Program-made: the position numbers and the translations under genes
Shown here: one piece after another, positions 25,234-61,092 of the stretch
How positions within the stretch are numbered: position 1 is the first letter of the stretch
Layout of the letters: each line of letters begins with the position of its first letter
Notes under the pieces: generated by a model
Told to the model about the DNA's origin: nothing
Database searches by the model: none
Seen by the model: only the letters and a program-made list of their open reading frames with translations
Assembly (NCBI GenBank): GCA_963971535.1
Contig: OZ020591.1
Coordinates: forward strand, 19,080,877-19,144,876
DNA length: 64,000 nt
Source: Notolepis coatsorum
Taxonomy: Eukaryota > Chordata > Actinopteri > Aulopiformes > Paralepididae
Direction of reading: 5' to 3'

Positions 25234-25281
<48 letters not shown>

Positions 25282-25473: not shown

Positions 25474-25524
<51 letters not shown>

Positions 25525-29540: not shown

Positions 29541-30504
29541 TTATATGTTGGGGAGGGGAAGGGGACAGGGGTAAACAGGGGAGTCACTAGCGGCGCCTGC
29601 CGTGTGCAGCGCGGTGTTTGCCCCCACAGGGAGTCGGCCCGGAGGGACGGTTCTGGGGAGCCTGGTCACGTCGATCCCTACCGTCACCTCCGGGCGTGTT
29701 GCGGCTGGCTGCGGCGGACAAGGCACTCCATCCACTCCTGGCCTTCTTCGATGAAGGCCCAGCAGCGGCGGCGGTGGTGGCGGAGGCAACGGTCGCGGTC
29801 CTCTGCCAGCGTTGCTTTTTTCGGCCATCACCGGTGGCATCGGGTCAGGGGAAATGGGGTTGGAGCACAGAGCGCTCCTCCTCCATCTCTCTGCAGGCAG
29901 CCGTCATCTGTTGCATGGCCGACCCGAACAGCCCAGCATCGGAGAGGGGGGCCGTGAGCAGGGGAATCCTCTTCTGTTCCGGCACCCGCGCCTGCTCCAG
30001 CCAAAGGTGGCGCTGGGAGTGGCCAGGGCGCGCTCCTTCCCGGCGGCTATCGCCTGCAGCTGGGTAAGGTGCAGGATGGCTCCAGCCGCCTGGGTGTGAA
30101 GATATTGCTAATGGTCATCCAATACCGACCCGCCCGCCATCATCCGCGACATGTAGCACGCTAGCTGCGCAATGTTAGAATTCGCAGCTAGGCTCTGATG
30201 TACGCCTGGTCACTCCAATTAGCCATCTGCCTAGCCGATTTCCCTTGGGGAACCGGCTTCCGCAACGGCTCCCACACCATTTCGGGACAAAGTATGGATG
30301 CCATCGGGCTATCAAGCCGAGGCACCCCGTCCTTTAGCCCCTGGACCAAACCCGCCACCAGCGTGACTGGCATGTAGGCGGGGGTAAGGCCAGTGATGCG
30401 GGAGATTACCTGTCCCTGTTTCACGTAGGCCTCCATTGACGGGAAGAATGGGCAGACAACGCCTGTCTCTCTCACAGGACGGTGTTGCCAGAGATGACCT
30501 ATCA
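29541..30504 (-). pseudogene. E1 gag-like frame, C-terminal part (fossil)
   Basis: This is the downstream portion of the first frame of E1. It has an alpha-helical segment with SNIAQLACYMSRMMAGG and a proline-rich end. The style (a helical block with QLQAIAAGKERALA) resembles the first protein of fish DIRS elements from memory. It is broken by several disruptions and separated from the upstream part by a LINE. Confidence 0.5.
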
Positions 30505-31827: not shown

Positions 31828-32565
31828 AGGAACAGGTGCAGGCAGAGGCTGCGGCAACGCCACGCCATTAGCGGCTGCGGCGGCCGCCATGAGCTCAGGG
31901 AACAAGGCAAGCAACTCCCCTTGCGTACCTCCCTCCACGTCACTCGCGTCCCTCAAGTACGGGAGGCTGCCATGTCGGGCGCCACCATCCGATGCGGCAG
32001 ATAGCTGGGCATCTTGTCTCAGGGTCGGAGGTTCTAACCCAACACCGGAGAACAAGGGACCCCAAGGAGACGCAACACTCCCTGCCACACCCCGAGGGGG
32101 AGAATGATACGCCTCCACTGGGGCATTGAACAAGAGCGCTCTCGCCCCCTCCATGTGGTCCTCAGTCTCCATCGGAAATGGAGACAAGGCAAGAGCACTC
32201 TCGTCCGGCTCCAGCACAACCTCAAAGCCTGGCCGTTCGCCCCTGCAGCTCGCCGCCCTACGACGGGAGAGAGCAGAGGCGAAGAGTCTGCGTCGCAAAT
32301 CCCCAGCCACCAGAGGAGCCGTTGGCCTATCGGCCGACTGTCCACTGGCGGGGGAACCAAGGCCGGAACCAGGCCATCTCACGGGAGACGGCGGCTCAAC
32401 TGCCCCTCGGAGAGGCAGACTCACCACCGGGCGCCGCCCGGGCGTATCTGACTGCCACGGCCGCGGAGTCAGAGCCGCCCCACGACGCACGGCGGACGCG
32501 GCAATGGAGAAGTGCTGGTGAAGGGTGACGTTGTGAGCGCTCGAACCCTCCGAAAATGCAGACAT
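31828..32565 (-). pseudogene. E1 gag-like frame, N-terminal part (fossil)
   Basis: The frame starts MSAFSEGSSAHNVTLHQHF about 125 bp inside the 5' inverted repeat of E1. It is rich in Pro, Arg and Ala, followed by an acidic segment (EPDESALALSPFPMETEDH). The last residues before 31828 come from E1; residues beyond are LINE tail. Position and composition fit the first frame of a DIRS element; the assignment is by architecture rather than a clear domain match. Confidence 0.55.
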
Positions 32566-32861
32566 TATGTCTTAGCTTTTCTCGTAAATTGGCGAGAGAG
32601 AGAAAAATAAGATACAATGACCACCTAGCTCCTTTCCAACAACTATTTCGGCACTAAACTCAAGTGGTGTATACAGACACTTGTCGGTGGTGAAAATAGG
32701 GAAGGAGCTGTTAGTATGGCCACGTCCCCACTTATGTAGAGGAGCGGATGTGGGTGTGGCCAGGCGGATGGGTGTGTACATGTGGAGAAATGTTATTCAG
32801 AATTAGATTGAAAGGGATAAGTTCCACTACGAGCAGAGCGTAAGCTATACGATAATATAAC

Positions 32862-42220: not shown

Positions 42221-43486
42221 GTTCTGTCTCACACTAGCTCACGCTCAGCGTTTCATGCATAATCTCGCTTCAGCGTATGCACACTGAATACATTTCAAAT
42301 GTACCTTTAAATGCCAGCATTCATCTGGCCACACCCCCATCCGCTTACCTACATAAGCAGGGATGGGCCACACACTCATCTCCTTCGCAAATTTCATCAC
42401 AAGCAACGTATTGCTCATATGCCCACTTGACGTGGAGAAAAATATTGCTCTAAGGAAAGGAAGAATAAGGAGAATACGTTGACATCATATCTTTATTTTC
42501 TCTCTCACTATTTTAAAATGAGAAAATACGGCGATATTGTCTTCGTACTGGAGTGTCTGGAAGATGGTGATCATTCCACAAACTCCACCGGTTTCGTATT
42601 GGGGGTTCACGCCGCTACATACCTCAGAGTCCCAGCTACAGTCTTCTTTGATGCGGCTGGACGGAGTGAAACCCTCCGGCGGTGCAGGGACTGTAGTGGC
42701 GCGCCGCTGTTGTGAGAAGCGGTGCGTTTCCAGGTTGGGTGAGTAGTGTTTTGCTGGCAGGCTCCACTTGTCTGTTAGTGCTATGGGGACTAATTGACAA
42801 TGTTTATGAAAACCGGGCCCAGGCTAGGGTCCTTTGTTCAGTCTCCTAGACGACGGAAGACCTTGGTCTGAAGCCATTTTAGTTTAACTAGTGGGCCGCG
42901 ACCATTAACACTGGTGATCCCTGTGTTTTCTGGACGAGTGGATATCTCTCTGTCCCGTGTTAAGCCCCTTCTTTCATATCCAAATGAGAGTATTCCTTCA
43001 CGAGGAGATATGTGCATGGATGTGCGATAGCGGCAGATCCATGTTCAAGTCAGCTACACAGGCCAGTTTGGTATTGTGCTGATTCTGTCGGGTGTTGGTA
43101 AAATCACCGTTGTAAAGCAGTGTTGACATCTTGTTTCTCTTTTCTCTTAAAAAGTGAGGAGAGGTTCAGAACGGCGGCCTGTCTGGGTGCGTGTTATGTC
43201 ATTGTATACATGTTCAGGTGATAGCTGCTTAGCTTACGGTTAGCCAGTCAGCTGTTAGCTGCTGCGTTAGCCTGCTGGGATCGCTGCGTGGCCTACTTAG
43301 GTTGGGCCTACTGTTAGCCAGTCAGCTGTTAGCTGCGGCGCTAGCATGTCGTGATCACTAGGTAACGTTAGCTTGCTGCTATAGGCCAAGGCCTGGCGCG
43401 GGGTAGCTTCAGCTCCTTGCGCGCCGCCGCAAGCTCGCTTCTGGTCACGTGCGCCGTTAGCTCGGCGTCTCGCGAGCAGGGGCAGT

Positions 43487-44824
43487 AGATCTATCTGCAG
43501 CCTTCGACACAGTCAACCATCAGATCCTCCTTGCGGCCCTCGCAGGAATGGGAGTGGCTGGATCTGCGCTGACATGGCTGACATCATACCTCAATGACCG
43601 CTCCTACCAAGTGTCATGGAGAGGGACTCTGTCGGCCACCCGCCCCCTCCGGACGGGTGTCCCCCAGGGCTCGGTCCTAGGACCCCTTCTCTTCTCCCTC
43701 TACACTAAATCACTGGGTAACATTATCACATCTCATGGCTTCTCATATCATTGTTATGCCGATGATACTCAACTCTTCCTCTCCTTCCCTCCCTCAGATA
43801 TCCACGTCTCTGAGCGGATCTCGGCCTGTCTGTCCGACATCTCCGCCTGGATGACGACCAACCACCTCAAACTGAACCTAAGCAAAACAGAATTGCTCCA
43901 CCTGCCGGCCAAATCCTCCCCCCTGACCGACCTCTCCATCACAGTCGAGAATGCAGCTGTGACCGCGTCGCCGACCGCCAAGAACCTTGGTGTTGTCCTC
44001 GACGACCAGTTGAACTTCTCTGCTCACATCGCAGCGACAACCAGAACCTGCAGATTCCTCCTGAGCAACGTCAGAAGGATACGCCCCTTCCTGACAAAAG
44101 AAGCCACCCAACTCCTCGTCCAATCAACAGTCATCTCCCGCCTCGACTACTGCAACGCACTGCTAGCTGGCCTCCCGGCCACTGCCACCAAGCCTCTTCA
44201 ACTCATTCAAAATGCAGCGGCCCGCCTGATCTCAAACCTACCGAAGTCAGCCCATGTCACCCCACTTCTTAGGGACCTGCACTGGCTCCCCATTGCTGCA
44301 CGTATCCGCTTCAAGGCCCTCGACCTAGCATACCGTGCGGCAAAGGGAACCGCTCCCGCCTACCTCCGGTCAATGGTCTCTAACTACACACCCTCAAGAC
44401 CCCTACGCTCTGCGTCTTCTGGCCGCCTCAGATCTACTCCTATCCAAGCTCCCGGAGGGTCATCAAAGAGAAGCCGCCTATTCTCAGTCCTTGCCCCACA
44501 ATGGTGGAATGAACTACCCATCCCAGTTAGGACAGTCGAATCCCGTCCAATCTTTCGCCGTCGACTAAAGTCTCACTTCTTCAACCATTATCTGAAATGA
44601 TAAAAAAAAAAAAAAAATAAAAAAAATCTAACCCCGACTAACCTTACTGTCATGCACTTGTCCTAATAAACTAACCTACACTGTAACACGCAACACTTTG
44701 ATGAACATTGTTACTCAGCTGATAGAGTTATACCCTTCTTGCTGTCTTGTTGCACAGAACTTGTAAGTCGCTTTGGATAAAAGCGTCAGCTAAATGACTA
44801 AATGTAAATGTAAATGTAAATGTA
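43487..44824 (+). mobile_element. L2-type LINE, 5'-truncated, inserted in E2
   Basis: It begins in RT motif A ([20 protein letters not shown]), contains a clean C-terminal frame and a 3' UTR, and ends with GCTTTGGATAAAAGCGTCAG and a TAAATG repeat. Pieces of another copy of the same family are at 734-954 and 6929-7490. Confidence 0.92.
43548..44600 (+). CDS. L2 LINE reverse transcriptase, C-terminal 350 residues
   Basis: Open frame to the natural stop. It shows LTSYLNDRSYQVSWRG, GVPQGSVLGPLLFSLYTKSL (37-56), the catalytic YADD at 70-73 (HCYADDTQLFLSF) and HLKLNLSKTELL. The conserved C-terminal block RLDYCNALLAGLP, LHWLPIAARIRFKAL, PQWWNELPIPVRT and FRRRLKSHFFNHYLK follows. The LINE sequence continues in frame 5' of the first methionine, so that methionine is internal. 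The endonuclease domain is missing through 5' truncation. The undamaged frame indicates a recent insertion into E2. Confidence 0.93.
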   Translation: MGVAGSALTWLTSYLNDRSYQVSWRGTLSATRPLRTGVPQGSVLGPLLFSLYTKSLGNIITSHGFSYHCYADDTQLFLSFPPSDIHVSERISACLSDISAWMTTNHLKLNLSKTELLHLPAKSSPLTDLSITVENAAVTASPTAKNLGVVLDDQLNFSAHIAATTRTCRFLLSNVRRIRPFLTKEATQLLVQSTVISRLDYCNALLAGLPATATKPLQLIQNAAARLISNLPKSAHVTPLLRDLHWLPIAARIRFKALDLAYRAAKGTAPAYLRSMVSNYTPSRPLRSASSGRLRSTPIQAPGGSSKRSRLFSVLAPQWWNELPIPVRTVESRPIFRRRLKSHFFNHYLK

Positions 44825-47168
44825 GCGCCCGAACGGTTGGAGCGGCCGTTAGCTTAATGCTACTCTGTTGAACGTGCTTTGATTATAACGTGTTTTACAC
44901 TCTTGACTACGACGTCATCCTTGACAGGGGATGTTCGTCGACCCTGCCCTGAGCCTGGACGGGGATTACGTCAACAAAGAGGACTGTAGCGACTGGTTGG
45001 AGCGACGACGCTGCCCAGTTCGAGCAACACAGGATCGGCTGTGTTGTCTACGGGGTCTTGAGTCTGCACTTCGCTGATCTACGTTCCGGATAGGACAAGG
45101 TTTGACCAGACCTTATAACACGTCTTCTGGTTTTACTTTTCTAAATGTTTTGTGAATAACGATGTTTTCCCAAAACGTGTGTTGCTGCAATGCATTTAGG
45201 ATACGACGCAAGTTATGTGTGAACTGTCTTTGTCACTGGCAGTTAGCTTCTCCGTGCAAATCGGTTTGTTACAGATGTGAAAATGATCTGGTTGTTGTGT
45301 GAGAAACATCATGTGTGTTTATATGTACCGTGTACTCACAACTAAGGTAACTAACCTATGAAGCTATGCTTAGTGACAAGTGAGTAAGAGAATGTTCTTT
45401 TCTCAGCCTGTGATGACAATGAACCCTTAGCTTGATTGCTGAGGTTGTGCTAAAACTGCTGGAGAAACTTTATTTTCCTAAAAGAAAAGATTGTTTGGTC
45501 GCTGTCGTGTGTGCTTAGCAAGGCCTGTGGCCGATACTAATCGAGAATTATGTATTCTCTCATTATGAAAAACGGCGTTCCTCTGTAGAGTGTTTTTGCC
45601 ATTTTTTGTAGGTGATGATGGGTTGTGTGTGTCATGTGACCTACAACTGGGTTGGACTGGCCACAGAAGCACATGTGTATGTTGGACCGGGGCTCTTAGA
45701 GCCCTCTCTATTCTGTGTTTTTTCCTTAGTAAAAATCAGATAGCAGGTTAGCTCATGTGCTGTGTGGAGCTGTCAAACACTTCATAGAGCTGACTATGAC
45801 TGTGTCATATTCTCTTTTTGTCATTACATCGTATCATGGGTGTCGGGTCGTAAAGGGGTGAACTGGTAACCTTTCCTCTCCCCCTTGTTTCTGTCGGTCA
45901 GGGGTACACCCCCTGTCCTTCAAGGTTCCCGTCACGTTGCGGTTCTGCACGTTACGGGGGGGGGGAGGGAGTTTCCTGGTCCCACGGCCTGGTATATTGG
46001 GCGTGTGCACCGCAGAAATTCCCCCGCCATAGAGTACGTCACCGTGCGCGTCTCTGTTGGTAGGACTTCCGTGTGCTGTTCAGGTCCATGTGATGGATCT
46101 GTTTCAGGGGGGTGGTCAGGGCTCCTCCTCACCAAGCGCCTATTCGGGCCTTTTGTGAGTTCGGACTCCTTCTTCCATGTGAGGGAGCCTCCATCAGAGT
46201 ACAGAGCCTTCCTCCTCAGATTGTCAAAGTGAGTGGACCCTCTAGAAGGTGTCCTATTCTATTGTATATGTATTCGATTCAATTCGATTATTGAGTGTGT
46301 ATGGGTTCAGTGCCTCTTCCGAGGAGAGCCCTATAACCAATTTTTTACATGGCTCAAGGTGCAATATATTCTTTTCAATCTGTACAGCTCGCGTGGGAAG
46401 TCTCTCTGGGGATCCCCGTCTCCTTCCTATGGGAGGATGGTGGGATGTAAAAATGGGAATTTTTTTTACCCCCGGCTGTGTAGACTGGGATACATACTGT
46501 TGATGCTTCCTTCTTTTCTATTCAAAAAGTGTTGGAGTTAGGAAGTGTCACACCCCTCTTGTCGTTCCCCTGGGCGCCTTGGGGATTCAATGACAGGTCT
46601 AAATAGCCTGTTCATTGATGGGGGTGTGTCCCGACGCACGTATAGTGCTAGCTCGCTGTAAACAGGCGACTGACTGGCACGCCTTGGTTGCTTGTGGTTA
46701 AAACAGCGTTTTTATAAAGCGACTGAGATGGGGGTTTTTCCTCTTCCGACGACCACATCTCACGACCTGGGTTGGTTATCGACGGATTCTCGTTCATGTC
46801 TGGGGGATGATGACGGAATGGATCTGAACATATGTAGAGGGGTCTCACGCCCTTGGGGTGGGCCACCGGGCGCGGTTCGCCCGAACGTCTGGGTGGCGCC
46901 TTCTTTTCATGTTAAGATCGACACGCATATCTGCCCTTTCTCCTGGAGTAGGCATGTCGGCGTGGTTAGGGCACGGGACTGGTTCTGGTCACGCTGGTCC
47001 GGATCAGTTGAACCCGTTGTCCGCCGGGGATGCAGATCTGCTGTTCTGGTACCCTGAGGGACTTGGGCTTTTTTCAGGGGGAAAAATGCCAGGTCGGTCC
47101 GGGTGTCACAGGGTTAAGCGCTATGGAGACCCTGGTTGGGTACGTTTTTACTCAGCACTGTCGTAATG
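44825..47168 (+). other. E2 interior, left part, no coding recognised
   Basis: It aligns by eye with 52.0-52.67 and 56.32-59.47 kb of E3 (shared blocks GCTTAGCAAGGCCTGTGGCC, GTGATGACAATGAAC, CTCAGATTGTCAA). No domain is visible in any frame. The resemblance of E2 and E3 is high across this stretch, so the family was non-coding here before the copies separated. Confidence 0.55.
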
Positions 47169-47288
47169 GCTTACGGCCATGCCAACCTGTACACGCTCGA
47201 TCTCGTCGGATCTCGGCCGCTACACGGGTTGGTCCTGGTTAGTACTTGGTTGGGAGACCGCCTGGGAATACCAAGTACGGTGTGCTTA
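47169..47288 (+). rRNA. 5S rRNA-like segment in E2 (pseudogene)
   Basis: It runs GCTTACGGCCATGCCAACCT, CTCGATCTCGTCGGATCTCG, then TAGTACTTGGTTGGGAGACC and GCCTGGGAATACCAAGTACG: 120 bp, full 5S length. The C-box region is well kept; the A-box region reads GCCGCTACACGGGTTGG and is degraded. Flanks TCGTAATG and GGGCTGGTTCTCC(ATT) are shared with E3's copy, so it was present in their common ancestor. Confidence 0.9.
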
Positions 47289-47613
47289 GGGGCTGGTTCT
47301 CCATTCTTTTTCGCTGCTCTCTCACGCATGGCGAAGAGGGGCCTGTTGGGGTGGTCTTTGACCTCCTCTGGTGACCCTGTGCTTCCCGTATCGCCAGGCC
47401 CGGTCCGAGGTAATGTTTCGTCGACCCGTAGGCCTGGGTTAACCCTTTTTTGAAAACTGAAACACTTGTACTGCGGTATTTTTCTTGAGGGGTTATGGAA
47501 CAACCACCGCATTGGGTAACGCCAAGGTGGTTGTTTCCCTGGTGTGTTGGAGCAGTGTCAACTCCCGGGTTCACCGTTTGAGGGTGCCCCTGCACGTTCA
47601 TGACGTCTGCCAC

Positions 47614-48491
47614 TAGGGATGTCCCGATCCGATCACGTGATCGGAATCGGCGTCGATCACGTGCTTTTCAGAGTATCGGGGATCGGGAAAAAATAATAAT
47701 AAAAATCGGCAGTCAAAAAAAGAAAAATTTTATTCAACAAACATGACCATGTCCACGTCTTAAACTCATACGGAGGCCTTAGTTTTGGTTTTAAATTACA
47801 TATAATATATCATCATTAATGTATTTATTGTCACACAGAGCAGAATAATTATCCACAACAAACACATTCCCCTTTAATTTTCACCGTTGCAACAAACATT
47901 CCCTTTAATTTAGACGCTACACGCTACACGCGAGTCGCGACCACATCACAACAACAACACGTCGCTCCCGAAACACGGTTAATATCCACTGACTTGAGCA
48001 GCTAGACTTAATGTCAGAGGTTTGGAACTAAGCATTTTAAAATAGAAATACAAGCAAGTTGCAATGTTTGCAAGGAGGAGATTCCGCGTGGAGGAAAAAC
48101 TCATGAAGCAGCAGGCTGGAGGCGAAGTTTTCAGACTAACTTTTCAACTGGAGGATAACGTTACGTCGGCGTTTCAGACCAGAATGGACCATTACGTAAG
48201 TCGAACACTGAATGTATACTAATGTGCAAACATATATTGAAACTTTGAATATTTCTCATATGAAGCAGAAGCACATTTCTCAGGGTGAATGTAATAACAA
48301 AAGCCTCCGCTCTCGCGCCCTATTATAGGCAACAGATGGGCTTGTCTCACTCTGCCAGTTTCTGACAAAAATGCGTCAAAATTGATTACTAATGTGAAAG
48401 ATCGGATCGGAAACGATCGGATCGATAGATATTTAAAATCATATGATCGGGATCGGATCGGAAGCAAAAAAAGGCGATCGGGACATCCCTA
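47614..48491. mobile_element. hAT element with 8-bp duplication TCTGCCAC
   Basis: The ends are TAGGGATGTCCCGATCCGAT and GCGATCGGGACATCCCTA, flanked by TCTGCCAC at 47606-47613 and 48492-48499. The empty site is visible in E3 at about 59920 (GACATCTGCCAATCGTG). GATCGG-rich subterminal repeats. It is non-coding apart from an 82-codon minus frame with no recognised domain. Confidence 0.92.
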
Positions 48492-49292
48492 TCTGCCACT
48501 CATGTCAGCCTTCTCTGCCTCAACCCCTCTGGGTGGGGGTTTTTGAATGGAGGCTTGGTCATGCAACAACGCCAGCATACGCCCCTTCCGCCGGGGCGGC
48601 TGTGTTCAGCTGTCTCCTCTGGCGCCTGTCTCGTCCGCAGTCTCCAGGCTAGGGTTAACAGCCTGTTGCCTGGTTTTTCCCCGGTGCGCTGCCTGCTTCC
48701 GTTGGTTAACCTTTTTTGTGTGCTTACGGCCATGCTGACTGCCTGTTCTGCAGGGTCAGTGTACCAGGCGGTGTACTATTGGGGGGACAGGGCCCGCTCG
48801 GCTGAGGGGCCTTTGTCCGAATACGCTGGCAATGTGGGGGGCGGGGTCACTAAGTGCCCACCTGGTGGGGTCTTGATGCTGGCATCATGGACTTCTCCGG
48901 GCCCCCGTTCCAGGGGGTCCAGTCCCTTTGGTGGGTCTGGGTCTTCCTTCGCGCTCCGCTGCTACGGCCTTGCCACGGGGTTGGGTTTGCCCTTGACCCC
49001 GTGATTCTGGGGGCAGTAACGAGGTTGTTTCCTCCGTTCGTTCCCGGGTGGCATGCGGGTTGTGCGTGTGTGTAGTCGTGGGGTCAAGCCACGCTCTGCT
49101 CACCCTGTGCGTTGAGTTGCTTGAGTGCCTCTTCGCACGGTCGGGTCCGTCGCCCTCCCGTGAAGCCACCAATAGGGGGGGTGCCCTCCATTAGGGTGGG
49201 TCGGGGGGGCTCGGCCCTCCCTGGTCTGATGGTTGTGGGGGGCCTCAGCAGGGTACATTTGTCGAGCTTCTAGCTCCCGCTCAGCTCCTATT
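48492..49292 (+). other. E2 interior, right part
   Basis: Non-coding by eye and alignable with 59.93-60.72 kb of E3 and the reverse of 25.95-27.35 kb of E1 (blocks CATACGCCCCTTCCGCCGGG, CTCCGCTGCTACGGCCTTGC). A short 5S-start-like GCTTACGGCCATG is at about 48721, and the same is at about 60151 in E3. Confidence 0.6.
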
Positions 49293-49383
49293 ATGCATGA
49301 AACGCTGAGCGTGAGCTAGTGTGAGACAGAACGTTAGGTTATAACTATAACCAAGTTCTGTTAACACTAGTGAACGCTCAGCG
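49293..49383 (+). repeat. Internal complementary region of E2
   Basis: The left half (ATGAAACGCTGAGCGTGAGC to GAGACAGAAC) is the reverse complement of E2's left end at 42221-42260. The right half (GTTAGGTTATAACTATAACC to GAACGCTCAGCG) is the reverse complement of its right end at 49571-49624, differing by about one base. Confidence 0.9.
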
Positions 49384-49624
49384 TCTAGACGCTGCTGCAG
49401 GCCCTTGATTTTTCATTGTGATGAAATTTGTTGGGAAGGAGATGAGTGTGTGGCCCATCCCTGCTTATGTAGGTAAGCGGATGGGGGTGTGGCCAGATGA
49501 ATGCTGGCATTTAAAGGTACATTTGAAATTTATTCAGTGTGCATACGCTGAAGCGAGATTATGCATGAAACGCTGAGCGTTCACTAAGTGTTAACAGAAC
49601 TTGGTTATAGTTATAACCTAACGT

Positions 49625-50200
49625 TAATTAGTCTATAGACAACCAGGAGAATATACATAGTTAATTAGTCTATAGACAACCAGGAGTATATACACAGTTA
49701 ATTAGTCTATAGACAACCAGGAGAATATAGGTAATTAGTATATAGACAACCAGGAGAATATAGTTAATTAGTCTATAGACAACCAGGAGAATATACATAG
49801 TTAATTAGCATATAGACAACCAGGAGAATATACATAGTTAATTAGTCTATAAACAACCAGGAGAATATAGTTAATTTGTCTATAGACAACCAGGAGAATA
49901 TAGTTAATTAGTCTATAGACAACCAGGAGAATATAGTTAATTAGTCTATAGACAACCAGGAGAATATAGTTAATTAGTCTATAGACAACCAGGAGAATAT
50001 AGGTAATTAGTCTATAGACAACCAAGAGAATATACATAGTTAATTAGTCTATAGACAACCAGGAGAATATAGTTAATTAGTCTATAGACAACCAGGAGAA
50101 TATACATAGTTAATTAGTCTATAGACAACCAGGAGAATATAGTTAATTAGTCTATAGACAACAAGGAGAATATACATTTAATTAGTCTATAATTAGTCTA
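49625..50200. repeat. 36-bp minisatellite, block 4
   Basis: The longest block, about 15 units of TTAATTAGTCTATAGACAAC plus CAGGAGAATATA(CATAG). The minus frame with repeated YILLVVYRLIN is an artefact of the unit. Confidence 0.96.
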
Positions 50201-50677
50201 GTCTGGTCAGATCAGCTGACCAGATGCTATTGGTGGTACCCAGAACCAGGCTCAAAACTAGGGGAGACAGAGCTTTCTCCACCGCAGCGCCTAGACTGTG
50301 GAACAGCCTCCCCCTCAGCGTACGGACTGCCCAGACCGTACAGGCTTTTAAATCACTCTTGAAAACCTACCTGTTCTCCTTGGCCTTCCCCCCTACTTAA
50401 CCACCACTAGACCCCTGGCCCTTCTATCCTCTTTGTTTTACTGTGTCCTACCAGTTTTTATTACTTTCATTGCTTTATTATGTTTTTAATCCTATATCTT
50501 GCACCATACTGTTTGTTTTTGTTGCTTTCATTGCTTTGCTATGTTTTTTTTTCTTTCTTTTAATCTTATACCTTGCCTCACACTAATTTGTTTTTATCAA
50601 CTTGCTTGTGAAGCACTTTGGTGTCAGCTGCCGCTGCCTGGAAATGTGCTATACAAATAAAACTGACTTGACTTGAC
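50201..50677 (+). mobile_element. L2-type LINE 3' end inserted in the minisatellite
   Basis: It encodes RLWNSLPLSVRTAQTVQAFK then SLLKTYLFSLAFPPT and a stop at about 50398, followed by a 3' UTR with AAATGTGCTATACAAATAAA and an ACTTG repeat tail. The typical 3' end of a Maui-like LINE. Confidence 0.88.
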
Positions 50678-50905
50678 TATAGACAACCAGGAGAATATAG
50701 TTAATTAGTCTATAGACAACAAGGAGAATATACATTTAATTTGTCTATAGACAACCAGGAGAATATAGTTAATTAGATAGACAACCAGGAGAATATACAT
50801 AGTTAATTAGTCTATAGACAACCATGAGAATATACACAGTTAATTAGTCTATAGACAACCAGGAGAATATAGGTAATTAGTCTATAGACAACCAGGAGAA
50901 TATAG
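50678..50905. repeat. 36-bp minisatellite, block 5
   Basis: About six units between the LINE end and E3. Confidence 0.95.
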
Positions 50906-53071
50906 GTCTATTTCATTATGGCTTACGCTCAGCATCATCTGCACTGACTTCACTTCGTGCACGTGCACTGAATAAAAAAATTCCACCATGTACCTTTACA
51001 TCCCAACATTCGTCTGGCCACACCCCTATCCACTTACCTTCATAAGCAGGTGTGTGGTCACCTACTCGCCTCCTTCCCAAACTTTCACCACAAGGAAGTG
51101 CCTTCGGTAGATCCCCACTTGACGAGGTTGTTAGTAGAAGAAAGTTGGAAAACGAAAGAACAGGAAGATACGTTGACATCATATCTTTATTTTCTCTCTC
51201 ACTATTTTCGAGAAAATACGGCGATATTGTCTTCGTCACTGGAGTGTCTGGAAGATGATGATCATTCTGACCTTCAACGGCTTTTTCGTATTAGGAGCTC
51301 ACGCCGCTGACATGCTCCCCAACTACAGTCCTCCCTGCTGCGGCTGGATGGGTTTGGCCCTCCGGCCATACAGCTGGACTGTGGGAAGCACCGACTGTTG
51401 TGAGAAAGAGGTGGCTTCCAGGGTGGGGTAAGTACTGTTTTGCTTGTGAGCTCTGGTTGTTGTTGATGCTGTGGGGGTTATCTGACAATTTAACGAAACG
51501 CCGACTCCAGACTGGGGTCCTCTGCTCGGCTTCTTAAACGGCGGTTGGAGGATCTTGGTCTGACGCCCATGATGGTCAATCTAGTGGGCCGCGACCAGGA
51601 CCTGGTGAACCCAGGATTCTCTGGATGAGCGGATGCTTCTCTGTCCCGTGCAGGCCCCATCTTTCACATAAAAGTGAAAGTACACCCTAACGAGGAAATG
51701 TGGGCATAGGATCTTCTTTATTGGGAGTTCCATGCTCAAAGTCGGCTGCAGCCCGAAATGGGAATTGTGCTGGCTCCGCTGTATGTCTGGTAAATCACTG
51801 TTGAAAACTGTGTTTGACATTCTTTTTCTCTTCCCTCTTAGGATGGGGAGGGGCTTGGACAGCGGCCTGTCTGAAGTGTGGCTTGTTATGTCGTTGTGTA
51901 CAGTTCAGGTGATAGCTGCTTAACTGGCGTGCTAGTTGTGGCCTACTGTGTAGGCCAGTCAGCTGTTAGCTGCGGCGCTAGCTCGCTGTGTTTACCAGGC
52001 TAGTAAACGTTAGCTTGTTGCTATCAGTCGGACGGCTGTTAGCTTAATGCTACACTGTTGAAACGATACTGTGACTATAACATGCCTTAAAACACTCTGA
52101 CTACGACGTCATCTTTGACAGAGGATGTTAGTCGACCCTACACCCGGTTGCCAGTGCCAGCGAGGACTTCGTCAACATGGAGAACGGCGGCTGGGTGGCG
52201 TTGCGGACATACCCTCGTCACCGGCGCAGGAGGTGCTGGGTTCAACTCGGTGTCCCGTTAAACCAGTGCTGCGGTTCTTTCGGCCTGCGTTCTGGGTGAA
52301 GGTAGGAGTCCCGACCGGACTTTAAACACTTCTTCTTTTCTTCCCTTCTAAATGTTTTGTAATAACGATGTTTCCAAATGTTTCCAACATTGTTGCTGCA
52401 ATACATTGAGGTTACGACGCGTGTTGTGTGTGAATTGTCTTGTCACTGGTATAGCTTCTCTCTGTAGTGAATCGGCGTTGTTTTTTACGTGTGTAAAAAT
52501 GAACTGGTTTGGTTGTGATGAGAACATGTGTGTTCATGTAACGTTGTACTTGTACCGTGGGTGAACTCACAACTAAGAGGGTTAATTAAACCTGTAAAGC
52601 TATGCTTAGTGACATGTGATTGAGGAATGAATTTTTTTCTCAGCCTGTGATGACAATGAACAGTATGTTCACCAGTGATGCCACTAACGCGCTACTAAGT
52701 AACGCGTTACTGTAATCTGATTACTTTTCCCCGAAAATAGTAATCTAATGCGTTAATCTTTACAAGCCAGTAATCTGATTGCAGTTACTTGTCCAAGTGG
52801 CTGTGTGTTACTATTTCGTTACTATCTCATCATAATGCAGGCGGAATGCAGTATTTTCTTTTGTTTTCGACAGTCAAAAATACGTTTGGAGCTGTTTTCC
52901 TTGTATTGGGGAGTGACGTCACAGCACGCAACCTCACGTGTTGTACCATGCTGGTGGGCGGTGGCTATTATTGTTATTATCAGGCTGACCTAAACATAGC
53001 TAGCAGGGAGACGCTCACGCTGGTAACGCTTTCTTGCACTGGAAGTTCAGTCACTAGTCTACTTAACGTTT

Positions 53072-53290
53072 GTGTCAGCTAAGCCAGGTGAAAAAAACAT
53101 TCACTATGTGGAGGAAACAAAATACTGTCTACCGCATCTGGAATATACAGCACAGCACGACCAAACGGATAGAAAAAAAACCAAAGCCGAAGCATCGACT
53201 TCTACAGGACTCGGAGGTGCACCAGCCAAACAGCAAAAGCTGGATTTCTTTACTGGATTTAAACTTTACTACCCACACATGAAGTGCTGA
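53072..53290 (+). pseudogene. hAT transposase N-terminal fragment
   Basis: A short frame containing EASTSTGLGGAPAKQQKLDF and a stop shortly after. The KQQKLDFF motif is common just after the BED zinc finger of fish hAT transposases, from memory. It is followed at 53347 by GCAGGTATGTT, a possible splice donor. The rest of the transposase is lost or lies beyond the LINE (C-terminal piece at 55815-55985). Confidence 0.55.
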
Positions 53291-53399
53291 TGCACTCTGA
53301 AGGACACCCTGCAGGACACGACTGCAGGCCTTCCAGATGCCATAGTGCAGGTATGTTCCACCTTTGAGTTAAACATCTTTTGCATTGCACTATTCATGA

Positions 53400-55538
53400 A
53401 CATGGAACACCATACTGCATCCTGTGAGAATGGCGCTGCTCCGACCGGCCGCCTTTCTGTTAGCTCCGTCGAGACTGTGCTTACTTTTGTTAATTTTTAT
53501 AGTTTTAAGAGTTTTATTTGCACCAACTGTTGGTGCATTATATCTGTATGACCGTCAGTCAATCATTGACATTGGATTAAGGAAAACGTACCGATTGGAT
53601 TGCTCTCTGGATCGGATTGCTGAACAGCAGCAGTGGCCCGCCGAAAACTCAGTTTTCAGGGTAACAGAGCATGAGGTGAGGCGGACCTTTAAAAAAGTGA
53701 ATATCAGGAAGGCAGCAGGACCGGACGGCATCCCCGGCCGCGTCCTAAAAGTCTGTGCCGACCAACTGGCCCCGGTATTCACTGACATCTTCAACCTGTC
53801 CTTGGAACAGGCTGTCATCCCCACCTGTCTGAAGAAGTCCACCATCATCCCTGTACCCAAAAAATCTACGCCCGCTTGCCTCAACGACTACCGCCCTGTA
53901 GCCCTCACCTCCATAGCCATGAAGTGCTTTGAGAAGCTAGTGAAGGGCTACATCTGTTCCTCCCTCCCCATCAACCTGGACCCCCTGCAATTTGCATATC
54001 GCCCCAACAGGTCCACGGAGGACGCCATAGCCCATGTGCTGCACACAGCAGCATCACACCTGGACAAGAGGCAGGGGAACTATGTGAGAATGCTGTTCAT
54101 CGACTACAGCTCAGCATTCAATACCATAGTCCCCTCCAAACTCATAGCCAAGCTCAGGGACCTGGGCTTGAACTATGACCTCTGCCAGTGGGTCTTGGAC
54201 TTCCTGACGGGCAGACCCCAGGTGGTAAGAGCAGGCAACTGCACCTCCTCATCCATCATGCTCAACATAGGGGCCCCCCAGGGCTGTGTTCTGAGCCCCC
54301 TCCTCTACTCCCTGTACACACATGACTGCGTGGCACAGCGGAACAACAACACAATCATCAAATTTGCTGATGACACAGTAGTGGTGGGCCTGATCTCTAC
54401 CAACGACGAGAGGGCCTACCTGGAAGAGGTAGAGAATCTGTCACAGTGGTGTCAGGAGAACTGCCTCTCCCTGAACGTCAGCAAAACAAAAGAGATGATT
54501 GTGGACTTCAGGAGGTCGGGGGTCAAGGACTACAGCCCCCTCAGCATCGACGGGGCACCGGTTGAGAGAGTGAACAGTTCCAAGTACCTCGGAGCCCACA
54601 TATCCGAGGACTTGACATGGACCACACACATTGACAGTGTTGTGAAGAAGGCACGACAACGCCTCTACTTCCTCAGGCGCCTAAGGAAGTTCCAAGTCAG
54701 TCAGAAGATCCTTAGGAACTTCTACTCATGTACAATAGAGAGCATCCTGACTGGCAACATCACCTCCTGGTTTGGGAATAGCACTGCACAAGACCGTAGC
54801 AGACTACAAAGAGTGACACGTTCAGCCGAACGCACAATTGGAGGGGGGCTTCCCACCCTCCAGAACATTTACAACAAGCGGTGCAGGGGGAAGGCTAAGA
54901 GAATCATCAAGGACTCCAGCCACCCGAACAACTGCCTCTTTGAACTGCTGCGGTCAGGCAAGCGATACCGGAGTCTTAAGGCGAGCACAGAAAGACTCAG
55001 AAGAAGCTTCTATCCCCAGGCCATCAGGCTGCTAAACGAACAATAAACACTATGCAACAACCATCAAATGCACACAGCACACACACCCACACGCACACAC
55101 TCACTTAAACAAACAACACACTGCAGCACCCACTCTCCACATTTTAGATCACACAAACACACTTTATATTTATTGATAAAGGATTTGCACTACAACTCGT
55201 ACACCTACTGTAAATTGTACCTAAATTGCACCTCATCCCATTTCTGCCTTGCACTATATAGTATTGTATATTAGTACACTGCATAGTATATTGTATATTA
55301 TATGGTAACTCAGTTACGTCTATTCTGCATCGAACATTGTACATATGTCTATACTGAACACTCATTTTTTTTACTTCTAATTTACATGCTATACTATGTT
55401 ATTTTATTTCATACTTATCTTGTCTTGCACAGTCTCTGGAGCGTAACAGTAAGAAGCATTTTGTATAAAAGTATTCTGTACTTCTGTATGACAACTATTA
55501 AAGAAACTTGCAGTATGTAGGTTGTCAGTAGCACACAA
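53400..55538 (+). mobile_element. LINE (FADD/I-like group) inserted in a hAT element
   Basis: The body is an RT frame (53424-55046), a 3' UTR of about 490 bp, and then a TAA-repeat tail. A TAA-type 3' tail is characteristic of I-clade LINEs, which supports, but does not prove, an I/Nimb-like assignment. The left boundary is approximate. Confidence 0.85.
53424..55046 (+). CDS. LINE ORF2-like protein, 540 codons, endonuclease deleted
   Basis: The N-terminus is hydrophobic (LLLLIFIVLRVLFAPTVG) and followed by LYLYDRQSIIDIGL, which looks like the start of the ORF2 region. The frame then passes directly into the pre-RT linker (FRVTEHEVRRTFKKVNIRKA, 78-97) and RT: NDYRPVALTSIAMKCFEKL, FIDYSSAFNTI at 225-235, GAPQGCVLSPLLYSLY at 283-298 and FADDTVVVGLI at 314-324. 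The C-terminal block with RTIGGGLPTLQ and the stop follow. About 200 residues of apurinic-type endonuclease expected between positions 50 and 70 are absent, yet the frame is open. This suggests an in-frame internal deletion in a recent copy or its source. Confidence 0.88.
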   Translation: MRMALLRPAAFLLAPSRLCLLLLIFIVLRVLFAPTVGALYLYDRQSIIDIGLRKTYRLDCSLDRIAEQQQWPAENSVFRVTEHEVRRTFKKVNIRKAAGPDGIPGRVLKVCADQLAPVFTDIFNLSLEQAVIPTCLKKSTIIPVPKKSTPACLNDYRPVALTSIAMKCFEKLVKGYICSSLPINLDPLQFAYRPNRSTEDAIAHVLHTAASHLDKRQGNYVRMLFIDYSSAFNTIVPSKLIAKLRDLGLNYDLCQWVLDFLTGRPQVVRAGNCTSSSIMLNIGAPQGCVLSPLLYSLYTHDCVAQRNNNTIIKFADDTVVVGLISTNDERAYLEEVENLSQWCQENCLSLNVSKTKEMIVDFRRSGVKDYSPLSIDGAPVERVNSSKYLGAHISEDLTWTTHIDSVVKKARQRLYFLRRLRKFQVSQKILRNFYSCTIESILTGNITSWFGNSTAQDRSRLQRVTRSAERTIGGGLPTLQNIYNKRCRGKAKRIIKDSSHPNNCLFELLRSGKRYRSLKASTERLRRSFYPQAIRLLNEQ

Positions 55539-55724
<186 letters not shown>

Positions 55725-55814
55725 GCATAGGAGGAGCAGTACCGTTTAATAGACTGTTTTTTAAGAGCATGAGCTTCAGATACTGGATAGACCTTCAAAC
55801 ATAAAGAAAATGTT

Positions 55815-55985
55815 CTTGAAGTATAACACTCCAACCCATCAAGTGCTCCTGTGGAACGGCTTTTTTTAGTCTGGGAGGGTTGGTGCTCACTCCTAGAAGG
55901 AACATACTTTCTGACAAGAGGTTTGAGAAGATTCTGTTACTGAGATATAATCACTGGTTTACTCACCCCTCTCCCCTGTTTCACT
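55815..55985 (+). pseudogene. hAT transposase C-terminal fragment
   Basis: The plus strand reads SAPVERLF, then after one extra T in a T-run, SLGGLVLTPRRNILSDKRFE and KILLLRYN. This is the signature C-terminal dimerisation block of hAT transposases. With the N-terminal fragment at 53072-53290 it shows that the 52673-56312 element once encoded its own transposase. Most of the catalytic domain is missing. Confidence 0.85.
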
Positions 55986-57120
55986 AGGAACATTAGAACC
56001 ATATCTGAATAGGGCAGGCCTCAAAGGTAGGCTACATATCAGCCTACATGTGGTGTTATTGACCATTTATCTTTTGTGAAATCTATAGATCTATAGATAG
56101 GCCTACCTGCCCTATTAGTACATTTTACTCAAACTGAGTACATTTTACTCAATATTTTTTTGTCATTCTTATGTTACGACTTCGTAACCTAGTTACTTTC
56201 AAAGTAACTAAGTTACTCTGATAATCAAGTAATCAGTAAAGTAACTAAGATTACTTTTTAAAGGAGTAATCAGTAATCAGATTACTTTTACAAGTAATCT
56301 GTGGCATCACTGATGTTCACACATTAACAGAGGTGCCTGTTTGCCTTGGTCGTATCAAGGGTAAAGATAGGAGGGGTGTCCCCCCGGTTCCCTGGGGCTT
56401 CCCCCCTTCCTCTCAGACATGTTTGGTTACAATATATTGTGTCACTGTGTTTGTGGGGATACAATGTAACCCTCAGCTTAATTGCTGGGGTTGTGCTTTC
56501 CGCTTGAGAAACAATCTTTTCCTAAAGAAAAGATTGTTTGGTCACTTATCATGTGTGCTTAGCAAGGCCTGTGGCCAATACATAATCGAGGATTCTGTCT
56601 TCTCTCGTTATGAAAAACGGCGTTCCTCTGTAGTAGGAGTGTACTGTGCCATTTTTTGTTGTGATGAAGGGTTGTGTGTGTCTTTGTGATCTACAACTGG
56701 GTTAGGTTTGGCCCACAGAAGCACATGTGTAAGTCTGGACCGGGGCTCTTAAAGGGGCCCTCTCTGTTCTGTGTTTTTCCTTAGTAAAACTCAGGTAGCA
56801 GGTTATCACATGAGCTATGTGAGGCTGTTCGATGCTTCATGTAACAGGCTATGACTGTGTCATGCTCTACTTGTCATTACATCGTATCATGGGTGAGGGG
56901 TCATAAAGGGGTGAACTGGTAATCCTTTCCTCCCCTTTTCTGTTGGTCAGGGGTTAAAACCACCTGTCCTTCAAGGTTCCTGTCACGTTGCTGTTCGGCA
57001 CGTTACAGGGTAAGAGGGAGGGGGGGGGGGGGAGTTTCCTGGTCCCACGCCCTGGAAGATTGGGCGTGTGCACCGCGGAAATTCCCCCGCCATAGAGTAT
57101 GTCATTCAGTGCGTCTCTAG

Positions 57121-58341
57121 CAGTGTTGTGCAAGTTACTGAAAAATAGTAACTCAGTTACTTTTCTAGTTACTCATTTCAAAAGTAACTCTGTTACGTTA
57201 CTAGTTACTTACACCCAAAAGTAATGCGTTACTGTGAAAAGTAACTATTTAGTTACTTGAAGAAGAAAGAAATTGCTCCCATGCAGCCAGATACAGATAC
57301 TCAAAATCGGTTGATCAACTTGACAGTTTCCATTCACATCACTGAACTCTGCTAAGCAATACATCTAGATACAAACACAAATCTGACACAAACACAAATG
57401 TCCCAATGTAATAAGAAATGCACCGTGCCTAATTGCTCGGGGAGGTTGAGCGCAGGCACGTTTAGGTTGCGCGCATGCACGTTTAGGTTGAGCGCATGCA
57501 CGTTTAGGTTCTAGGTTGAAAATAAGTGCTTGAGGAACAGCCTTGATATCTGTCGCCGGAGCGTTTCATTATAACAGTCTTGCAATGTTGTTTAAGATAT
57601 CAATCGTGCATTGCAACGTTAGAATAGTTAGGATATCAATTGTGCATGAAAGGACTATATTTATATTGTTTGATTAGTATTGATGAGATTCCCTGGCAGA
57701 TTTGTAGTCAAAATGCGTTGATCAACTTGAGTTTCCATTCATTTACATTCACATCACTGCACTCACCAGTGTCTATCGAGATGTAAAGTTAGTCCAGCAG
57801 CCCCTTAAACATTTTCTTTGTTTCATTTCCATGTTGTACTGTATATTCTCTCTCCAAGTAGTTGAAAAAAGATTTCCGTCCCATTTGCTGTGTGTCGCCT
57901 CGTATCATTCTACGCGGGTGGCGAGTGGATTTGGATGAGTCCTCGTAGTTAACGTTAGACTCCAGTATCTTTGAGCCAAAACACAAATGACATAACTAAA
58001 ACGTTATTTTCTTTTCGCTCGACAAAAGAGAAATACGCGAGTAGCTGCCTGGGCGCTGCCATTATCAGTCAGGAATCTCAGGAATAGTAAACAAAACACG
58101 CCCCCATCATAGCGTTTCCCCGCAGCCAGGCAGACAGGATATGAGGATAATAATAATAATAATCACTACCGCTCGCTATCAATCTACGCCGTATATAACG
58201 CAAATAACGCAGTGACGAACCATTCAGTAACGTAAGTAGCGTTACTGAATTTCAAAAGTAATGCGTTAGAGTACTAGTTATCGCCAAAAGTAACTTCGTT
58301 ACTGTAACGCGTTACTTTGTAACGCGTTAGTCCCAACACTG
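57121..58341. mobile_element. hAT element with 8-bp duplication GTCTCTAG
   Basis: The ends are CAGTGTTGTGCAAGTTACT and GTTAGTCCCAACACTG, flanked by GTCTCTAG at 57113-57120 and 58342-58349. The empty site is seen in E2 (GCGCGTCTCTGTTGGTAGGA at about 46047). Subterminal GTAACGCGTTACT repeats. It is non-coding; a 65-codon minus frame at 57789-57986 has no recognised domain. Confidence 0.93.
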
Positions 58342-59474
58342 GTCTCTAGTGGTAAGACTTCTGTGGGTTGTTCGGGTCCATGTTATGGATCTGTTTCAGG
58401 GAGTTGTCAGAGCTCCTCCTCACGAAGCTCCTCCTCAGAGAGAAGTGCCTTCTGTGAGTTCGGACTCTCCTTCCCAGTGAGGGAGCCTCCTCAAAGTTCA
58501 GAGCCTCCTCCTCAGATTGTCAAGGTGAGTAGAACTTCAAAAAAAGGGAGTTCTGCTCTATTGTGTGTATTCGATTCAATTCGATTATTGAGTGTGTATT
58601 GGTTCAGTGCCTCCTCCTCGGAGAGCCCTAACCCAAGTGTTACATGGCTCAATGTTGCAATATATTCTTTTCAATCTATACAGCTCGCGTGTGAAGTCTC
58701 TCTGGGGATACCGTCTCCTCCCTGTGGCGAGGGTGGCGGGATGTAAAAATGTAAACTATTTTTACCCTCAGCTGCGTCACGTGGGATTCATGTCAGTCTG
58801 TGTTTCTTTCTTTTTTAAATAAAAAGAGGCAGGAACATGAAGCACGACGGCTCCGTGTCGTTCTCCCAGGCGACTTGGAGGAACAATGTCTGGTGTCTTG
58901 CTAGACTATTCATTGATGTGTTTGGGTCTCGACGAGTACATAGTGCTGGCTCGGGGTGTTTCTGTTAAGAATCACGCAGGGGCTAAGTGCGCCTTGGTTG
59001 CTCGTTATTAAAACAGCGTTTTTATAGGGCAACTGGGATGGAGTTTTGTCTCTTCCGAGCGCCAGTTTACTAGGTTGTCTCGATGAATTCTCGTTCATAT
59101 CTGGGGGATGTTAACGGAATAGATCAGAACATAGGTAGAGGGGTCTCACGCCCTTGGGGTGGGCCACTGAGCGCGGTACAAATGGGACCGTCTGGGTGGC
59201 GCCCTCTTTTCATGTTTTTAGATCGACACGCATACCTACCCCCTCTTCCGGAGTGGGCATGTCGGCGTGGTTAGGGCACGGGACTGGTTCTGGTCGCGCT
59301 GGTCCAGGTCAGTTAACCCGTTGTCCGCCGGGGATGCAGATCTGCTGTTCTGGTACCCTGAGGGAGTTGTGCTTTTTTCGGGGGGAAAAATGCCGGGTCG
59401 GCCCGGGTGTCACGGGGTTAGGCGTTATGGAGACCCTTTGTTGGGTACATGTTGTACTCTGCACTATCGTAATG

Positions 59475-59570
59475 GCTTACAGCCATACCAACCTGTACAC
59501 GCTAAGCAGGTTCGGTCCTGGTTAGTACTTGGTTGGGAGACCGCCTGGGAATACCAAGTGCAGTGAGCTT
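59475..59570 (+). rRNA. 5S rRNA-like segment in E3, internally deleted (pseudogene)
   Basis: It runs GCTTACAGCCATACCAACCT to GCTAAGCAGGTTCGGTCCTG, TTAGTACTTGGTTGGGAGAC and AATACCAAGTGCAGTGAGCTT. At 96 bp it lacks about 24 bp around the usual CCCGATCTCGTCTGATCTCG, while the A-box-like GCTAAGCAGGTTCGG and the C-box region are well kept. It occupies the same place as the E2 copy. Confidence 0.9.
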
Positions 59571-60715
59571 AGGGCTGGTTCTCCATTCTTTTCGCTCCTC
59601 TCTCACGCGTGGCGAAGAGGGGGCTGTTGGGGTGGTCTTTGGACCTCCTCTGGTAACCCTGTGCTTCCCGAGCCGCCGGGCCCGGTCCGAAGTAATGTTT
59701 CATCGACCCGTAGGCCTGGAATAACCCTTTTTTGAAAACTGAAACACTTGTACTGCGGTATAGCTGGTGTATACCCGCAGGTGTGTTTGAGTTTTTTCTT
59801 GAGGGGTTATAGGAACAACCACCGTCTGTGTACCAAGAGGGTGGTTGATTCCCTGGTGTGTTGGAGCAGAGTCAACTCCCGGGTTACCCGGTTGAGTGTG
59901 CCCCTGCACGTTCATGACATCTGCCAATCGTGTCAGCCTTCTCTGCCTCGACCCCTCTGTTTTTTTTTTTTTGATGGAGGCTTTGTCATGGTGCTCAACA
60001 ACGCCAGCATACGCCCCTTCCGCCGGGGAGGCTGTTTCAGTTGACCCCTTTGGCGCCTGTCTCGTCCGCAGTACTCCAGGCTCGGGTCTACAGCCTGTTG
60101 CCTGGTTTCCCCGGTGCGCTGCCTGCTTCCGTTGGTTAACCTTTTGAATGCTTACGGCCATGCTGACTGCCTGTGTTGCAGGGTCAGTGTGCCAGGCGGT
60201 GTACTAATGGGGGGAAAGGGCCCGCTCTTGGAGGGGCCCTGTCCGAATATGCTGGCGATGTGGGGGGCGGTGTCACTAAGTGACCGCCTGGTGGGGTCTT
60301 GATGCCTGGCGTCATTGACCTCTCCGGGCCCCCTTTTTCCAGGGGATCCAGTCCCTTCAGTGGGTCTGGGTCTTCCTTCGCGCTCCGCTGCTACGGCCTT
60401 GCCACAGGGTTGAGTTTGCTCTTGGCCCCGTGTTTTTGGGGGCAGTAACGAGGGTTGTTCCTTCCGTTCGTTCCCTGGTGGCATGCGGGTTGTGCGTGTG
60501 CGTAGTCGTGGGGTCAAGCCACGGTCTGCTCACCCTGTGCGTTGAGTTGCTTGAGTTCCTCTTCGCACGGTCGGATCCGTCTCCCTCCCGTCCTCCAATA
60601 GGGAGGGTATCCCTCCATTAGGGAGGGTCGGGGGGCTCGGTCCTCCCTGGTCTGATGGTTGTGGGGGGCCTAAGCGGGGTACATTTGTCGAGCTTTGGCT
60701 CCCGCTCAGCTCCTA

Positions 60716-60794
60716 TTGTGCAGATGATGCTGAGCGTAAGCCATAATGAAATAGAACGTAACCAAGTTCTATGAATTATGGTGACGCTCAGCAT
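60716..60794 (+). repeat. Internal complementary region of E3
   Basis: The left half (GATGATGCTGAGCGTAAGCC to AATAGAAC) is the reverse complement of E3's left end at about 50906-50943. The right half (AACCAAGTTCTATGAATTAT to ACGCTCAGC) is the reverse complement of its right end at about 60980-61012. Confidence 0.9.
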
Positions 60795-61030
60795 ACGCCG
60801 CTGCAGCCCTTGATCTCGCCTTGTGGTGAAAGTGTGGGAAGGAGGCGAGTAGGTGACCACACACCTGCTTATGAAGGTAAGCGGATAGGGGTGTGGCCAG
60901 ACGAATGTTGGGATGTAAAGGTACATGGTGGAATTTTTTATTCAGTGCACGTGCACGAAGTGAAGTCAGTGCAGATGATGCTGAGCGTCACCATAATTCA
61001 TAGAACTTGGTTATATACATAACCTTACGT

Positions 61031-61092
61031 TAATTAGTCTATAGACAACCAGGATAATATACATAGTTAATCAGTCTATAGACAACCAGGAT
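61031..61092. repeat. 36-bp minisatellite, block 6
   Basis: Almost two units (TTAATTAGTCTATAGACAAC, CAGGATAATATACATAG) right of E3. Confidence 0.93.

Follow-up and report, generated by a model that had tools for sequence, protein, structure and literature searches.

Two families of long terminal repeat (LTR) elements, Cassandra and Ajax, are the nearest known counterparts of the elements described here. Cassandra, a plant terminal-repeat retrotransposon in miniature (TRIM) of 565-860 bp (PMC10886601), carries 5S ribosomal RNA (5S) sequence inside its LTRs (PMC10853983); Ajax, a nemertean TRIM, is an LTR element of 421-434 bp that has in its LTRs only the promoter part of the 5S and has 5-bp target site duplications (PMC10886601). 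5S sequence is also found in chimeras with long interspersed element 1 (LINE-1), where it is typically truncated, antisense, and present in individual insertions, and template switching or RNA ligation has been proposed for sense joins of other RNAs to LINE-1 (PMC13174262). TnDIRS1a, a DIRS1-like element of fish, starts with GTT and has a circular junction AAC, inverted terminal repeats, and 3′ complementary regions of 36-57 bp (PMC3266345); these statements, and those below that cite the same papers, follow portions of the published accounts. Here we describe a stretch of 64,000 nucleotides from Notolepis coatsorum (the window; contig OZ020591.1, our C23, positions 19,080,877 to 19,144,876, assembly GCA_963971535.1), which holds three DIRS1-type elements (E1, E2, and E3) and a 3′ fragment of an E1-type element (P). 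E2 and E3 carry a 5S segment at one and the same place (site A), as do thousands of copies in the genome, and P carries one at another place (site B).

Within the open full-text literature, as judged from titles and the beginnings of abstracts (most subscription papers, preprints, and Repbase lie outside this scope), we found no 5S inside a DIRS element; a consensus carrying such a segment may already be on record in a database. The portion of the DIRS1-like account in PMC3266345 that we draw on does not mention 5S, and no search for 5S was made there; the term “5S rRNA” is absent from PMC9210276, on Xenopus DIRS elements; and in the portions of PMC8869645 and PMC10138776 covered by the same literature check no 5S-carrying DIRS element turned up.

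5S segments in the window and host 5S

Rfam gave three matches in the window, all of them 5S and all above the family cut-off (Table 1), in the sense direction and within the 3′ noncoding part of the element. The segments of E2 and E3 occupy the identical place in the element, with conserved flanks on either side, as an earlier reading made from the letters of the window (the sequence-only reading) had claimed. That reading had also noticed the third segment in a partial copy beside a terminal repeat, which is where it lies; its position in the element, however, is a different one (site B), and it looks like a second capture.

In the host assembly (3.42 Gb), 47 genomic 5S matches were scored, all over the cut-off (the other similarity searches of the genome cover at most the best 40 scored matches each), and host 5S arrays lie at eight loci, several of them with a spacing of ~232 bp. 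Compared with the common host 5S, the E2 segment shows 16 substitutions and 1 gap, the E3 segment 6 substitutions and a 24-nt loss, and the P segment 9 substitutions and 1 gap. Five changes are common to E2 and E3 (positions 22, 66, 83, 107, and 115), and P has none of them; the change at position 13 is common to P and E2 only. The loss in E3 lies between two CGCT repeats and takes out the helix III hairpin region; of 29 haplotyped E3-type copies, 27 lack 10 nt of the helix III region and two lack more. Some host array units (L005 1733-1840 and L007 351-458) also lack 10 nt of this region, a loss of the same size and region as that of most E3-type copies. The window segments score 62-90 bits vs 108-117 bits for the 47 genomic matches, and with these low scores, together with the helix III losses of the E3-type copies, we dropped the interpretation that the segments are intact 5S for ribosomes.

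Copy number and fixation of the 5S at site A

The left flank of site A, ACTCNGCACTRTCGTAATG, has 4,858 exact occurrences in the genome (2,482 + 2,376), and the 27-nt junction pattern that joins this flank to 5S bases 1-8 has 4,028 (2,045 + 1,983), with 0 in the reversed control in both cases; the 4,028 exact junctions against none in the control exclude a chance origin of the junction. For a less biased sample, chosen with a pattern that contains no 5S, we took the first 100 listed copies of the left flank, all on contig C1: 85 have the exact 8-base 5S start, and the remaining 15, all of which were fetched, hold 5S that departs from the pattern within its first 8 bases, so that site A is filled in 100 of the 100 (85 by pattern, 15 by sequence). 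In three of the 15 fetched copies (L089, L090, and L097) an inverted-repeat element that starts with CAGTGGTGCAGTCGT sits at one and the same base inside the 5S, and letters complementary to this start occur further on.

E3-type and E1-type loci were chosen by similarity to queries with and without 5S, respectively. With the 5S in the query, all 30 E3-type loci (E3 included) have the left junction and a filled site A; the exact 23-nt core of box C is present in 28 of them and a TTTT run after the 5S in 30. Two of these loci, L029 and L036, have larger losses in the 5S, that of L029 running through box A. The best 40 scored matches of the E2 site-A query (E2 included) show 96-100% identity, which marks the E2 type as a young subfamily. 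Because E2 and E3 have common breakpoints and five shared changes, and the identical left junction recurs in thousands of copies, a capture before the E2/E3 split, as proposed in the sequence-only reading, is strongly supported; separate breakpoints and SINE3 tails in E2 and E3 (SINE, short interspersed element), the outcome that reading had named as contrary to its own proposal, were not seen.

Copies without 5S and a probable second capture at site B

With an E1 query over site A (281 bp), the best 40 scored matches span 281-303 bp, too short for the query plus a 5S, so these matches hold no added 5S. The 12 of these E1-type copies that were fetched are all without 5S at site A and have one junction, GTGCTA(A)AGGAGCCTGG; the GTGCTAAGGAGCCTGG at site A of E1, which had earlier been pointed out as a short flank kept where the 5S is missing, is the usual state in its subfamily. 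By eye, the site-A letters of E1 can be aligned with the left flank about as well as with the 3′ end of 5S, and because they fit both, the junction alone is compatible with an ancestral 5S-less state as well as with one old loss. The sequence beside site A is common to the E2/E3 type and the 5S-less E1 type.

At site B, the evidence comes from relatives of P. Among the scored matches of the P query there are 39 further places, of which 38 share only the 133-bp stretch 20585-20717 (98-100%), that is, the 5S plus a few bases; L079 alone reaches into the terminal repeat. Three copies (L076, L077, and L078) have a full-length 5S at site B with E1-like sequence on both sides, and site B is uninterrupted in all 40 scored E1-type copies (E1 included), which places P in a subfamily of the E1 clade that has 5S at site B. 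The left junction of site B occurs exactly 195 times genome-wide (104 + 91; control 0). The site-B 5S of P is best read as a second, separate capture in an E1-type subfamily. L081, which adjoins L076, has no 5S match at site A, where its stretch is about as long as that of E1 with a middle part unaligned to E1; in L080 no match to E1 lies beyond site A. P itself has lost what lay between its 5S and the inner part of its right terminal repeat. The inverted ends (CAGGGCTGCAACTA-like) of an element that seemingly interrupts P on the left lie at 20270-20397 and ~18900-18960; we take them to be of hAT type.

E2 and E3 have at site B an exact 14-mer, GCTTACGGCCATGC, that is like the start of 5S; it occurs four times in the window, always within this family, and the alignment puts it where the 5S of P sits. 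This 14-mer may be what is left of an older 5S at site B, in which case the site-B capture would predate the split of the two clades. A broader history of this kind would have the E1 type arise by secondary deletion of an old site-A 5S, with the site-B 5S old as well and the 14-mer as its relic. The 14-mer, confined to this family within the window, and the fit of the E1 junction to the 5S 3′ end, favor such a history, whereas the single clean site-A junction of the 12 E1-type copies and the uninterrupted site B of the 40 scored ones speak against it. In addition, the exact start of the motif is present in 26 of 50 fetched site-B stretches (some overlap), many others reading GCTTTACGGCCATGC; box C is present in none of the 50, Rfam found no 5S in the E3 site-B stretch, and the rest of the 14-mer region (the 3′ half) scores no better than shuffles. 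We regard this history as unlikely.

Structure and coding capacity of the elements

Judged by their termini, E1, E2, and E3 are DIRS1-type insertions. Inverted terminal repeats are present in all three, the first letters are GTT or a near variant, and the internal complementary regions match both termini and meet at the 3-bp junction AAC (in E2 with 98% over 47 nt for the left end and 98% over 56 nt for the right end). E3, like E2, is inserted in a 33/37-bp minisatellite: joining the flanks of E2 re-forms a unit of the array, save one A/T difference, and the joined flanks of both elements show trinucleotide integration with no target duplication. DIRS anatomy was found in 6 of 10 fetched genomic stretches, namely the six with both ends readable; all six of these dispersed copies have GTT as the left trinucleotide, whereas on the right three have GTT and the others GTA, GGT, or ATT.

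The minisatellite (42053-42220, 49623-50191, 50677-50905, and 61029-61100) holds E2 and E3 at GTT-like sites, and in three of the six dispersed copies read (L056, L060, and L063) the host sequence is another repeat (ACTACCACACTACAG...), beside GTTAA-like letters; the family may prefer tandem arrays as insertion targets. Head-to-tail copies with a regular spacing of 4,551 bp are found in L061 (G000:C4459:17000-26999), and three left flanks of head-to-tail copies on C1 (29070008, 29073486, and 29076963) lie ~3,478 bp apart, a pattern that the integration of tandem arrays or circular concatemers could produce.

TABLE 1. Elements, 5S segments, and associated features of the window.
Feature	Positions	Strand	Remarks
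P, 3′ fragment of E1-type element	20398..20866	+	ends with right terminal repeat; internal complementary region deleted
P 5S, site B, full length	20596..20713	+	Rfam 89.9 bits
P right terminal repeat	20723..20866	+	89% to E1 right terminal repeat
E1, sister DIRS1-type element	21255..32861	-	without 5S at site A (~27795) or site B (~27125)
E1 internal complementary region	25850-25942		E1 on minus strand; anatomy as in E2/E3
E2, DIRS1-type element	42221..49625	+	both ends GTT; sits in 33/37-bp minisatellite
E2 left inverted terminal repeat	42221..42402	+	150 nt, 99% complementarity with 49431-49580
Later insertions in E2 (two)	~43278-44842 and ~47613-48490		
E2 5S, site A, full length	47169..47287	+	Rfam match 47169-47286, 66.1 bits
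T5 run, possible RNA polymerase III terminator	47307..47311	+	~19 nt after E2 5S
E2 internal complementary region	49290..49384	+	junction AAC; complementary to both element ends
E2 right inverted terminal repeat with right extension	49416..49625	+	
E3, DIRS1-type element	50905..61031	+	
E3 left inverted terminal repeat	50905..51095	+	50915-51095 97% to 60997-60819
Later insertions in E3	~52673-56312 and ~57119-58341		limits set from uninterrupted relatives
E3 5S, site A	59475..59570	+	Rfam match 59475-59569, 62.1 bits; 24 internal positions absent
T4 run	59589..59592	+	~19 nt after E3 5S
14-nt 5S-start-like motif at site B	60150..60163 (E3), 48722-48735 (E2)	+	many family members read GCTTTACGG there
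E3 internal complementary region	60718..60794	+	100%/38 nt to left end, 100%/36 nt to right end
E3 right inverted terminal repeat with right extension	60819..61031	+	

Neither 106 open frames of E1-E3 (at least 55 residues; for E1 some of the frames; best E-value 0.019) nor the read-through translations, made in six frames for parts of E2, in the three forward frames for parts of E3, and in six frames for L054, gave a credible Pfam domain; in the frames tested of E1-E3 and L054, reverse transcriptase/RNase H, methyltransferase, and tyrosine recombinase domains were all missing. Since no coding domain was found in the frames tested, the family appears to be one of non-autonomous elements with DIRS1-type termini. 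Of the two reverse transcriptase frames tested, one (43461-44597) is within a later insertion of E2 and the other (33557-35224) is outside E1. A 264-aa open frame of E1 (31780-32571, minus strand) adjoins the left terminal repeat, has no Pfam match, and is single copy in the window; that it is the remnant of a DIRS gag frame is a guess. A PF00589 search of the genome for a partner gave 18 matches, seven of them with a 419-aa frame. Around the one match that was fetched (L084, with a 419-aa frame) there are no inverted repeats or DIRS termini, and it has no similarity to the family except short low-complexity-like matches.

Origin and role of the captured 5S

Both captured 5S segments run from base 1 to about base 119-120, with ends as in mature 5S. 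Neither is bordered by the flanks of the host genes (TATTTC on the 5′ side; a T-run and GCACAGC on the 3′ side) or by a SINE3 tail, and a target-duplication script that covered site A of E2 and E3 found no shared direct repeat of at least 4 nt in either. Together, these features point to mature 5S RNA as the template. The flanks of the P 5S show a TGGG repeat, but the right flank of P is rearranged. In the mechanism that we propose, the reverse transcriptase would have jumped at least twice from the RNA of the element onto mature 5S RNA of the host and then returned, and DIRS machinery acting in trans would have multiplied the resulting 5S chimeras. At present the 5S would mainly be a passenger in the element RNA, giving rise at most to a short RNA polymerase III (Pol III) transcript of ~115-145 nt and not to the genomic RNA.

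It is also conceivable that LINE machinery put a SINE3 or a 5S pseudogene into the element and that the tail was later lost. 5S-headed SINEs exist, and Kojima proposed that the 5S of Ajax and Cassandra came from an inserted SINE3 (PMC10886601). Site A, however, has neither a tail nor a clear target duplication; what follows its 5S is also found in the E1 type, which has no 5S there, and at site B the sequence to the left and right matches E1. A SINE3 insertion was dropped on the missing tail and the shared sequence, and we consider an origin through LINE machinery in general to be quite improbable.

Regarding its role, the sequence-only reading had offered the 5S as a promoter, a structured RNA part, or a passenger. 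As promoter of the whole element it is unlikely: it lies ~1.5 kb from the element 3′ end, net of insertions, with a T4-T5 run ~19 nt downstream, a position from which transcription of the genomic RNA is improbable; this leaves a passenger or a short Pol III RNA. The 5S is not conserved in excess between E2 and E3 (the longest exact run, of 51 nt, is upstream of the 5S, and the run in the 5S is 46 nt), and z-scores of -0.45 (E2), -2.16 (E3), and -2.09 (P) are not strong as signs of special folding. No tRNA was found by a tRNA scan, and pattern scans of viral contigs and genome contigs gave 0 matches.

A working Pol III unit would have its box A, intermediate element (IE), and box C recruit TFIIIA and TFIIIC; the RNA would start at GCTTACGG, consist of the 5S plus ~20 nt, and end at the T-run, and it might aid the element by chromatin opening, by nuclear or nucleolar targeting, or by priming a later strand. 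Such a unit fits the box C core and TTTT run kept in the E3-type loci, the amplification of each of the two captures, and the parallels of Ajax, which retains the promoter part only (PMC10886601), and of the Cassandras, which have a common core of ~70 bp around the promoter (PMC10853983). Among 29 E3-type copies, diversity is 0.014 in box A and 0.022 in IE and box C, vs 0.034 in nt 1-27 and 0.076 in nt 98-120; in the flanks that adjoin the 5S it is 0.017 upstream and 0.018 downstream (0.028-0.045 further out). Thus, conservation of the promoter core exceeds that of the 5S ends but not that of the adjoining flanks. In addition, box A of E2 has 5 substitutions and a gap, and P has lost one base from IE and has 2 changes in box C (compared with human 5S and its box limits; comparison with the host 5S finds the same places changed), yet the E2 and P types were both amplified. 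We think that a working Pol III unit is possible but doubtful, and we favor a passenger over a functional module, without great confidence.

On balance we lean, if only slightly, toward capture of host 5S RNA by template switching at least twice, followed by amplification mainly as a passenger. Several points weigh against this preference. The junctions are the whole of the case for template switching, and a trimmed 5S pseudogene inserted as DNA would look similar; there are, by eye, degenerate candidates for a 4-6-nt duplication (TAAWGG at site A and GGRG at site B). The lower variability of the promoter core relative to the 5S ends, and two captures in one clade, each then amplified, could mean that the 5S brings a benefit. 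Finally, no autonomous partner was found, one PF00589 locus having been inspected and no reverse transcriptase search made.

Comparison with known systems

How DIRS elements prime reverse transcription and make their genomic RNA is poorly known. With sister subfamilies that have and that lack the 5S side by side, this genome provides a natural experiment for asking if a 5S module helps an element to spread. In addition, because at least 4,028 site-A and 195 site-B loci start like a 5S gene, 5S gene counts and small-RNA mapping can be misled. The family might be a DIRS-order counterpart of Cassandra, with host 5S recruited repeatedly as a functional Pol III module that partly drove the expansion to thousands of copies and that may act through a short RNA, by opening chromatin, or as a primer in the DIRS replication cycle; we put this forward tentatively, as one of the less probable readings.

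Similar to TnDIRS1a (PMC3266345), the family has a GTT start, an AAC junction, inverted terminal repeats, and 3′ complementary regions; unlike DIRS1-like elements, which encode gag, reverse transcriptase/RNase H/methyltransferase, and tyrosine recombinase (PMC3266345), it shows no such domain in the E1-E3 frames tested. As in 5S/LINE-1 chimeras (PMC13174262), 5S RNA would have been joined to a retrotransposon in reverse transcription, but the 5S of this family was full-length at capture, is in sense orientation, and is inherited by the family. SINE3 (PMC10886601) is likewise a mobile element with a 5S-derived segment, whereas the 5S here is without a SINE tail or clear target duplication and is carried inside another element. 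With Ajax (PMC10886601) the family shares the character of a non-autonomous retroelement with 5S sequence including the internal promoter boxes, and with Cassandra (PMC10853983) a 5S region whose promoter motifs were retained through amplification; it differs from Ajax in its DIRS termini, its length of ~5 kb, its one full-length 5S outside the terminal repeats, and its GTT-type insertion. TRIMp3 elements (Cassandra and Ajax) are marked by LTRs with a small-RNA promoter, whereas here inverted repeats form the termini and do not contain the 5S. 5S capture in DIRS-type elements is an addition to the LTR elements, SINEs, and LINE-1 chimeras already described.

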